Assembly: GCA_030699345.1 (NCBI GenBank)
Contig: JAUYMX010000191.1
Location: 1-35,442 of the forward strand
Source: Methylococcaceae bacterium
GTDB taxonomy: Bacteria; Pseudomonadota; Gammaproteobacteria; Methylococcales; Methylomonadaceae
DNA: 35,442 nucleotides
Direction: 5' to 3'
Numbering within the stretch: position 1 is the first letter of the stretch; every line of letters begins with the position of its first letter. Made by a program: the position numbers and the translations under genes. This document shows positions 9,651 to 30,745 of this stretch, in pieces. A model generated the notes under the pieces. The model saw only the letters and a program-made list of their open reading frames with translations, was not told the DNA's origin and did not search any database.

Positions 9651-9956
9651 TTATTGCACGGCTTTTAGATGTTTAACCGCTTCGTTAGCCGCTTTTTTAG
9701 CTTCTTCGGTATGGCCTAAGTTGCCATGTTCGATAGCTTCATCCAAATTTTTGATACCGGCATCCAGATGTTCATCGGCGACTTTTGCGTGGGTTTTAGC
9801 GGTATCCGCATGTTCGGCGATGGTTTTAGCGTCGGTGGCTTTTGCCGCGACTTGTGCATGTTTAAGTGCTACTGCGCTGTGGCTTTCTTCAGCAAATGCG
9901 CCGAATGAGCATAAGGTTAATGCAATGCCTGCACACACGTTTGAGGTAAGTTTCAT
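9651..9956 (-). CDS. SmbP-like small metal-binding periplasmic protein
   Basis: Signal peptide ..CSFGAFAEE; regularly spaced H/A/E helices (ALKHAQVAAKA, IAEHADTAKTHAKVADEHLDAG). Confidence 0.72.
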   Translation of the reverse strand: MKLTSNVCAGIALTLCSFGAFAEESHSAVALKHAQVAAKATDAKTIAEHADTAKTHAKVADEHLDAGIKNLDEAIEHGNLGHTEEAKKAANEAVKHLKAVQ

Positions 9957-19020: not shown

Positions 19021-19801
19021 ATGACGGTTCCGTGTTGGGTTGTGGAGTTATACCGGTGAATCGGCAAAAGGTTACAGAGATTCCTGCCGTAATGGTTGCA
19101 GGTTAATTTGAAAGCTTGGTTGAATGGGAGGAATCGAAAGTAGCAGGCTGCCGGTTTGGAGGGATATTAAAAAATTTAGCTCAACATTCACCTGCGGGTT
19201 AGGTGAATCTTTACGGCACTTAAGCAAGCCGTTCAACAGCAATTGGATAGGCAGCGCTGCCCGTTTTCTCAAAATTAGTGAAGTTTTCTATCGTTTTTTT
19301 GGCAATTTCACTAAGTGCCTCATACGTAAAAAAGGCCTGATGCCCGGTAATTAACACATGCGGGAATCAGCGTATTGGAAAGATCGCAGAAAACAGACTG
19401 TCCTCTTCTTCGTATACATCAAGACCAAGACTGCCAATCACCCCAAGACTTTAAACTCGAACACTTCCCGATCGGTTGGCGCACTGCAATTAGGCAAGAT
19501 GCACTACCGGCTTGAATTGGATGAAGATTTTGTATGGTTGGAAGCGGAGATTGGCAACGGATAGAGTCCTCAGGCCAGACTCTGAGTGTGTAGGAGGTGC
19601 ATCGGTCGCGATTGATGCGCTTCACTGTGTTCAGCACATCCTAAACTCGGGGTAACCTTGCCATCAGTTCTGACTGAAAGTAATGGATAGAACAGCAAAT
19701 AGGGTAGCAGAAATTTAAGTTTACTCTGACCCCAGTTATTTCCAGTTATTTTAACCTCGAACTCGATTTTCATATTGGACTCGGACGGGCCTGTCTTTTA
19801 C

Positions 19802-19870
19802 ACATAACGTGGAGGTCACCGGCGCTGCGCGGCTTTATCGTGCAGCGTCCGGTGGACCGTAGGGTTGTGC
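19802..19870 (-). repeat. attC-like recombination site (69 bp)
   Basis: minus strand GCACAAC..GGTCCACCGGACGCTGC-acgataaagccgc-GCAGCGCCGGTGACC..GTTATGT; stem with unpaired extra bases. Confidence 0.75.
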
Positions 19871-20517
19871 GTCATGGCTTCGCTCCGCAGAGACTGTCGA
19901 ACTTACGTACAAATGCGGATTGGGTTGCGCTATCTGTTAAGAGAGCGGATTTGTAGGACTCGACGTATTCAAGCAGACCGGTCTGGAAGTTGTCTCGATA
20001 AAGGATGCGGTCTGTGACATTGGCGATGGCGTTTGAGCTCTTAGCCCACACCTTCCAGCCATTCTTTGTTTGTGCTTCATGCAGCAGTCCGCACCTTACG
20101 CCCTCATAAAAGTCGAGTGCGGATGGTTCACTAAATGTGCCGGCAAACGGTTTTCGATTATACAAGAACGCGATGAAGATAGATTTGCTCGATGAATACT
20201 CGAACGGCCCCAGCCTTTCGCCGTTGCGTTTGAACCGATACGTAAGCCCCTGTGCTGTGGACTCAAGAAATTCAATCAATGTGCATTGAATTGCGGCGAT
20301 TGAAAAAACCTTCACCCTGGTAGGTTCCGTTGTCCTGAAGAATCTTGATTGGATCAAGATAGCGAAGCGCCAAGCGAGGGCGGAAATATTCCTCGAATGC
20401 GGCTTCCCATACGGACGGATCGGCGTCTGCGACAAGGGCTCCCCTAAACGCGAGCCAGTCGCCTTCAGTCTTCGATCCAGCAATTAGCGTCTCAGATGTA
20501 CGGGTCATGACGCACAA
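19808..20517 (-). mobile_element. integron-type gene cassette 2 (hypothetical protein)
   Basis: 5' boundary TTGTGC is complementary to its own attC outer core GCACAAC. Confidence 0.72.
19872..20508 (-). pseudogene. cassette-encoded hypothetical protein, single frameshift
   Basis: Start MTRTSETLIAGSKTEGDWLAFRGAL at 20508; frames join at poly-T near 20306: ..GTYQGEGF|SIAAIQCTLIEFLESTAQGL.. Confidence 0.65.
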
Positions 20518-20622
20518 CGTTTGAGCTAACCGGCATTTTGAGGTATGCGGCGGTTGGGCGAGAATGAAATGAAGCCCAACCGCCGCATGCCGCAAAATGT
20601 CCGGTTGAGCGAATTGTTAGGC
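20512..20622 (-). repeat. attC-like recombination site (about 111 bp)
   Basis: minus strand GCCTAACAATTCGCTCAACCGGaCATTTTGCGGCATGCGGCGGTTGGGC...GCCCAACCGCCGCATACCTCAAAATGCCGGTTAGCTCAAACGTTGTGC; long imperfect palindrome with extrahelical base. Confidence 0.85.
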
Positions 20623-21076
20623 CGCACTGCGCTAGCGTCTACTCGGCTTCCTTGCACACAGCTTCTATGCGGTGTCCCTCTGGGTCCAAAACGAAAGCGG
20701 CAAAGTAGTTGTCCCCATAATCGGGTCGAAGTCCCGGCGCTCCGTTGTCTTTACCGCCGGTAGCTATAGCAGCTGCGTGAAAGTCCTGTACTGCAGCCCT
20801 TGTCTTTGCTGCAAACGCTATGTGAAAGCCAGGGATGACTGGTATGTCTTGCGATACTTGTTTGATTGCAAGATTGTCGCCAGAGCCTGGAAGGCCGTAA
20901 CCGACTGCTTGCTCCTCTTCACCTGGTCGAAGATCAGTCCAGACCCGGACATAGCCTAGTGGCTCCATTACAGCATCGTAGAAACGGGCTGCCTGTTCGA
21001 TGTCTTTAGCGCCAATGGATAGATGGTGAAGCATGTATTTTGGTGGAAGAGTGTGGGCCGAAATTGTGCGGCCTAA
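20518..21076 (-). mobile_element. integron-type gene cassette 1 (VOC/glyoxalase-family protein)
   Basis: 5' boundary GTTAGGC (21071..21077) is complementary to its attC outer core GCCTAAC (20616..20622). Confidence 0.8.
20639..21034 (-). CDS. VOC family (glyoxalase/bleomycin-resistance-fold) protein
   Basis: MLHHLSIGAKDIEQAARFYDAVMEPLGYVRV ... AFVLDPEGHRIEAVC. Confidence 0.9.
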   Translation of the reverse strand: MLHHLSIGAKDIEQAARFYDAVMEPLGYVRVWTDLRPGEEEQAVGYGLPGSGDNLAIKQVSQDIPVIPGFHIAFAAKTRAAVQDFHAAAIATGGKDNGAPGLRPDYGDNYFAAFVLDPEGHRIEAVCKEAE

Positions 21077-21160
21077 CTATTGATTATCAAGCAAATCTGC
21101 CTGGACAAGTCGATATTACCCGTCTTTTCGGGCACTTTTGCTTTGATAATTAGAAAACCG
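21071..21160 (-). repeat. degenerate attC-like site upstream of cassette 1
   Basis: GTTAGGC core plus imperfect IR attatcaagcaaa / ttttgctttgataat with one extra base; far outer core not recognisable. Confidence 0.45.
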
Positions 21161-21361
21161 CGCATAGTTGCCTCGATAACTTAATATTAACCGTAAAATC
21201 AGGCGAATTTGCCTGCACATTTAATTTGCGCCTCACTATAGCCGGTAACATTTCTATGTCAAGCAAGCGCTAGCCAAGTAGGGTATGCATTTACGCACAG
21301 GGGCTTCGGCAGGATTAGCCAATCAGAGACGATGCATGGCGGTAGCGCGTTGCTTGGCCTA

Positions 21362-29879: not shown

Positions 29880-29968
29880 TTCAAGGATGATAAAGCCAAA
29901 CTTATTGTAAGATAGGGACGGAAAGCTACGGGGCCTTTATAAAAGGCTGGCCGCGTTGCATTAAATTT
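29880..29968 (+). ncRNA. probable cyclic-di-GMP-I (GEMM-I) riboswitch aptamer
   Basis: gataaagcCAAACttattgtaagatagGGACGgAAAGCtACGGGgcctttataaaaggcTGGCCGcGTTGc, just upstream of the PEP-CTERM gene. Confidence 0.68.
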
Positions 29969-29995: not shown

Positions 29996-30745
29996 ATGAA
30001 ATATCAAAAAACTTTGCTAGTGCTGGCTTTGATCGCCAGTACAGTAACAACCAGTACTGCCCAGGCGTCTTTATTTGATCGTGGCGGTGGCCTGCTTTAT
30101 GACAATGTCCTCAATGTCACCTGGCTGCAAGACGCCAACTACGCTCATACTTCAGGTTATGCACTAGCCGATAGTACAGGAAGAATGGACTGGGCGACTG
30201 CAACTAACTGGGCCGCCAATCTGAATTTTGACGGCCTTACCGGCTGGCGTTTGGCGACCAATACCCCGGTCAGTGGTGGCACAAGTTTTGATTTATATTT
30301 CAGCTATAACGGCAGTACGGATTTTAGTTACAACATCACCAGCCCACACTCCGAGCTGGCCTATATGTACAATGTCAACCTAGGCTTGACGAATGCTGCC
30401 AGTACCACTGGCGCTAGCCAATCCAATTTTGGCATCTTCGGCAACGGTACTACTACCGGTCAAAATAACGTCGGCCTGGTGAACAACCTGCAAGGCACTG
30501 GTTACTGGTCTGGTGCTGAGTTATCGCCCGGTTCTGGCACTGCATGGTACTTCAATACCAGCTTTGGCTCGCAGGGCCATGTTTTTCCTAAGGGCTTCCA
30601 GTTCTATGCATGGGCCGTTCGCCCCGGCGATGTTGCCGCCATCCCTGTACCTAGTGCCGTCTGGTTATTTGGCACAGGAATAATCGGATTGTTAGGTTTA
30701 GGACGTCTCGGCAATATTGGTTCATTGGGGCAGAGCAATGCTTAA
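29996..30745 (+). CDS. PEP-CTERM protein with DUF1566/Lcl-like domain
   Basis: Signal peptide; LYDNVLNVTWLQDANYA..MDWATATNWAANLNFDGLTGWRLAT; C-terminal IPVPSAVWLFGTGIIGLLGLGRL. Confidence 0.88.
   Translation: MKYQKTLLVLALIASTVTTSTAQASLFDRGGGLLYDNVLNVTWLQDANYAHTSGYALADSTGRMDWATATNWAANLNFDGLTGWRLATNTPVSGGTSFDLYFSYNGSTDFSYNITSPHSELAYMYNVNLGLTNAASTTGASQSNFGIFGNGTTTGQNNVGLVNNLQGTGYWSGAELSPGSGTAWYFNTSFGSQGHVFPKGFQFYAWAVRPGDVAAIPVPSAVWLFGTGIIGLLGLGRLGNIGSLGQSNA

Follow-up and report, generated by a model that had tools for sequence, protein, structure and literature searches.

An integron cassette array without an integrase gene, anchored on a predicted attI site, in a Methylomonadaceae genome

Background

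The term CALIN (cluster of attC lacking integrase) was introduced by Cury et al. 2016, according to the passage on these elements in PMC8618304. CALINs are commoner than complete integrons (PMC9668308), and off-target insertion of cassettes at secondary sites is a recognised route to their formation (PMC8618304). It is usually hard to decide whether a given CALIN arose in this manner or through loss of the integrase gene intI, since knowledge of attI sites is poor for integrons other than class 1 (PMC9024848). IntegronFinder recognises only the attI of class 1 (PMC9024848), so that any anchoring of a CALIN on another attI goes unseen. The closest described systems are found in Xanthomonas, where sedentary chromosomal integrons carry truncated intI genes (PMC12444791), and in Methylococcus, for which the sections of PMC8527097 consulted describe integron-like elements in the form of complete integrons, separate attC arrays and a lone integrase. 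Among the papers searched, there was no report of Methylomonas integrons or of attI without intI.

Gene cassettes and core sites

The sequence analysed here, referred to as the window, is the 35,442-bp contig C346 at its full length and belongs to a metagenome-assembled genome (MAG) of 3.2 Mb in 610 contigs, which is 75% complete. A preliminary description had placed two orphan gene cassettes in the window. Both cassettes are real, though the gene of the second is split between frames and a third, broken cassette begins at 19807. The features of the array are as follows.

20518-21076, minus strand: cassette 1, 559 bp, TTAGGC...G, delimited by the chain of core sites
20639-21034, minus strand: VOC gene of cassette 1 (glyoxalase/bleomycin-resistance superfamily), 131 aa; Pfam PF00903, E 4.7e-9
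20512-20622, minus strand: attC of cassette 1, 111 nt; 50.9 bits with the attC model R1
19808-20517, minus strand: cassette 2, 710 bp, TTGTGC...G, delimited by the chain of core sites
19872-20508, minus strand: gene of cassette 2, family not assigned; long ORF at 19872-20483, with the ATG at 20508 in another frame
19802-19870, minus strand: attC of cassette 2, 69 nt; 59.5 bits with R1
19713-19807, minus strand: start of a third cassette, broken, TTATGTG..., with no closing attC

The 5' boundary of each cassette is complementary to its own R'' outer core, exactly as previously described, and the junctions lie at G|TT, which is the arrangement that defines a gene cassette. GTTAGGC at the end of attI (21077-21071) pairs with the R'' GCCTAAC (20622-20616), and the R' GTTGTGC (20518-20512), which has one mismatch to the GTTRRRY consensus, pairs with the R'' GCACAAC (19870-19864). 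The last R' is GTTATGT (19808-19802), and the chain of core sites runs unbroken from attI through both attC.

The best plasmid relatives of the VOC protein are from Shinella and Rhizobium (61-64% identity), and a relative is present in just one of the 236 other genomes of the family, at 40% identity. The gene of cassette 2 does not match any Pfam family, and relatives of its ORF were found in none of the same 236 genomes. It is split over two frames with the change near a poly-T tract at approximately 20303-20308, and is either a pseudogene or the product of an assembly error. The cassette genes are thus foreign to the family. This eliminates the alternative that these genes and palindromes are an ordinary locus, syntenic and fixed among relatives. 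Within the third cassette, positions 19713-19746 resemble sequence beside an attC in another genome of the genus (G008). With the gene of cassette 2 broken and cassette 3 decayed, this copy of the array may be inactive.

attC sites

A covariance model (R1) was trained on 20 attC from relatives with the window sequence excluded, most of which had been traced along the core-site chain outward from attI. When the 35-kb window was searched with filters off, R1 matched 19802-19870 (minus strand; 59.5 bits, E 4.2e-11) and 20512-20622 (minus strand; 50.9 bits, E 3.2e-9), while the third-ranked match reached 12.9 bits (E 0.7). The model, used in place of IntegronFinder, therefore places both attC-like palindromes exactly where the preliminary description had drawn them. 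On DNA folding each attC forms a single hairpin, and both hairpins leave one A unpaired at the same place in L'', which agrees with the extrahelical bases described earlier. This unpaired L'' A is almost invariant across the alignment of attC from relatives. The attC of cassette 2 is 83-87% identical to attC in an intact integron of G008. No attC was identified with Rfam at gathering thresholds; the sole Rfam match in the window is a c-di-GMP-I riboswitch (29885-29963, plus strand, 59.7 bits) located upstream of the ORF at 29996-30745.

Long GC-rich hairpins located 3' of genes are also what would be expected of ordinary chromosomal genes whose terminators merely resemble attC. A terminator scan found no T-tailed hairpin at either palindrome, and together with the E-values of the attC model, the matched core sites, the adjoining attI and the foreign cassette genes this leaves the terminator explanation with almost no credibility.

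attI site, cassette promoter and intI stump

The region directly upstream of the first cassette contains the following features.

21071-21262, minus strand: attI with the cassette promoter region, 192 bp; cut between G21077 and T21076
21257-21262, minus strand: -35 box of the cassette promoter Pc, TTGACA, overlapping intI codons 1-2 in antisense
21235-21240, minus strand: -10 box of Pc, TATAGT, after a 16-bp spacer; Pc matches the consensus at 11 of 12 positions
21256-21273, plus strand: intI 5' stump, ATG TCA AGC AAG CGC TAG (MSSKR*), followed by unrelated sequence

The element at 21071-21262 is recognised by sequence identity, as 142 bp of it are 91% identical to a segment of contig C91 of the same MAG (G000), which lies between a truncated intI and another cassette array. 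In seven loci of the family (L052, L057, L060, L061, L064, L068 and L071) the element abuts an intact, divergent intI, and for this reason it is predicted to be the attI of the family. These seven attI end in CAATAGTT, which is followed by cassette-like genes. In the consensus of 40 loci the family attI also features four copies of an imperfect palindrome, GGCAAATTTGCC, spaced at intervals of about 30-41 bp, which are candidate binding sites for IntI or a regulator.

The -35 box of the window lies approximately 182-187 bp from the cut, as it does in relatives with intact intI, and the predicted promoter (TTGACA-16-TATAGT) reads into the cassettes. The IntI proteins of intact relatives begin with ATGTCAAG(C/T)..., and the homology of the window to intI runs into ATGTCAAGCAAGCGC, about five codons, before diverging. 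In place of an intact tyrosine recombinase gene with its integron-specific domain, ATGTCAAGCAAGCGC alone is left. Since attI, a Pc at the conserved distance and the start of intI are all present, the locus reads as an integron that has lost intI and kept attI and Pc, rather than as cassettes at random sites. The window very probably holds a chromosomal integron minus intI, of which attI, Pc, the first intI codons, two cassettes with attC and the start of a third remain.

Under this explanation IntI would have been present earlier, and circular cassettes would have been inserted at the G|TT of attI through attI x attC recombination, which would produce the matched core sites seen in the sequence. 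The VOC gene is probably still expressed from Pc, as this promoter is intact, in the right orientation and adjacent to cassette 1, and further cassette movement at this site would be possible only through an IntI acting in trans.

The absence of intI would equally be expected if an IntI encoded elsewhere had inserted the cassettes off-target, at a secondary (attG-like) site that was never an integron platform. A secondary site is unlike what is observed, however, since the cassettes abut a 192-bp family attI that retains Pc and a stump of intI, and off-target insertion is considered very improbable here. This anchoring points instead to intI loss at a genuine integron platform as the origin of the array. 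The assignment of the array as a CALIN in the preliminary description holds in respect of two attC and no integrase but is incomplete, as the attI at 21071-21262 was overlooked; the term orphan is overstated for an array that retains attI, Pc and the 5' end of intI.

Integrase genes and genome context of the MAG

No match to IntI was identified in the window, as had been reported, and a search of the 610 contigs of the 75%-complete MAG recovered no intact intI. The search of the remaining genome that had been proposed did identify two remnants. Contig C91 carries an N-terminal intI remnant of the same IntI type, and C520 carries a remnant of a second IntI type, which has an intact orthologue beside the same neighbour gene in G008. 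The second integron type of the genus (L015 3301-3462, L125 1985-2950) adjoins a di-haem cytochrome/SCO-like gene; its intI is intact in G008 and a fragment in the MAG of the window. Integrase matches on C103 and C174 are XerC/XerD-like full recombinases that score far under the IntI cut-off. Further attC are located on C91, C520 and C610, and those on C610 include a three-attC array (G000:C610:2111-3392), with no intI found on that contig.

The genome of another member of the genus (G007) is syntenic with the window over the sigma-factor and signal-peptidase genes to position 19077 and differs beyond it. No other genome yielded an orthologue of this precise locus, and no empty site for it was identified in the other three genomes of the genus. 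In these three genomes the DUF2272 gene exhibits a single weak match of 37 aa, in G008, and the Mut7-C gene exhibits none.

attI loci across the Methylomonadaceae

The attI element was found in 35 of 237 genomes of the family, representing 9 of 29 genera. In a scan of GTDB genomes, the exact 25-base attI pattern was limited to Methylomonas, Methylotuvimicrobium, Methylomicrobium and Methylococcales or gammaproteobacterial MAGs. Among 42 attI loci, intI is intact in 7, truncated or frameshifted in 17 and not detectable by tblastn in 18, although a few of the last group retain an intI stub of up to ~25 codons that was seen by eye. Most of these 18 loci keep Pc at the expected place, and several loci that are unrelated to one another lose homology directly after ATGTCAAGC, just beyond the -35 box. 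The retention of Pc and the position of this homology edge suggest selection for cassette expression.

The same boundary, together with the presence of up to 3-4 attI per genome that are mostly without intact intI, would also be expected if a Pc-attI block, with or without cassettes, moved or was copied independently. In that case intI would never have been present at the window locus and one IntI elsewhere would serve several sites. In many attI copies 20-150 codons of intI are still present, a sign of erosion of the gene, and a boundary near the -35 box would also result from selection for Pc. Among the sharply bounded attI loci, none had a clean empty counterpart with both flanks present; relatives of the left flanks exist, and the right flanks either differ or, in G114, a shortened attI is present. 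A mobile Pc-attI block is accordingly an unlikely origin for the array, for which loss of intI in place is the preferred reading.

The shortened attI of G114 (L170, ~9700-9870) lacks intI and ~115 bp of the element, apparently through recombination between the first and last palindromes; GTTAGAT and a cassette-like gene still come after it. Genes that by eye resemble RAYT-type (REP-associated) transposases are located within several arrays or at their distal ends (L014 6635-7345; L015 5042-5596; L019 2529-3140; L175 4117-4638).

Proposed cassette turnover at attI loci without intI

Four pairs of orthologous loci lacking functional intI (C91/G009, L049/L063, L078/L085 and L076/L080) have ~1.5 kb of upstream flank in common at 88-91% identity. 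In each pair the intI break and attI are also common, and beyond the G|TT cut the identity drops. C91 of the window's MAG and its counterpart in G009, for example, have intI truncated in the same way and flanks of 88% identity, with cassettes that differ from the first base. G119 and G114 have both flanks of an attI locus without intI in common (88-89%), with unrelated contents. A cassette of the intact integron L071 recurs from its first base at L050 (97%) and L081 (91%), which are attI loci without detectable intI. In L078/L085 the shared sequence resumes just after the R'' of the first cassette rather than after the full attC, and this pair is therefore not a textbook case of cassette exchange.

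The presence of unrelated first cassettes at orthologous loci without intI points to cassette turnover by an integrase in trans, and the simplest reading of these alignments is that such attI sites keep exchanging cassettes in this manner. As an alternative, whole arrays may have been swapped between strains by homologous replacement. For the window locus, turnover in trans is inferred from these other loci of the family.

Taken more widely, Pc-attI sites without intI might be a lasting part of Methylomonadaceae genomes, with several per chromosome, their promoters kept and their cassettes still supplied by IntI in trans. We advance this tentatively, as somewhat less than an even prospect. If it is true, a set of dispersed insertion sites, each ready for expression, is served by a single integrase. 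This family pattern of several promoter-bearing attI per genome, lacking intI and undergoing turnover, is the more interesting part of the analysis and is drawn from loci other than the window.

Comparison with known integrons and CALINs

The array has at least two attC, as identified by our own model R1, in cassette order with no intI nearby, and in this it is a CALIN; it differs from CALINs in having a recognisable attI, a Pc and an intI stump. The array is best described as a CALIN formed by intI loss and anchored on its own attI. Because the family-specific attI is recognisable by sequence, it gives direct evidence of how such an array arose, and what becomes of the docking site after intI loss can be traced across species.

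Compared with the intact Methylomonas integrons (e.g. L057 and L071, with an IntI of ~328 aa), the window has the same attI, position of Pc and class of attC. The intact integrons keep intI divergent from the cassettes, whereas the window keeps approximately five codons of it. The Methylococcus elements belong to a different genus, and the consulted sections of PMC8527097 do not include a characterisation of attI. The Xanthomonas integrons are similar in that an ancestral platform has had its intI deleted or truncated and the arrays persist (PMC12444791). Those arrays are reported to have been dynamic prior to the inactivation of intI (PMC12444791), whereas the Methylomonadaceae have several attI loci per genome, and some of the loci without intI carry different cassettes after a shared loss of the gene.
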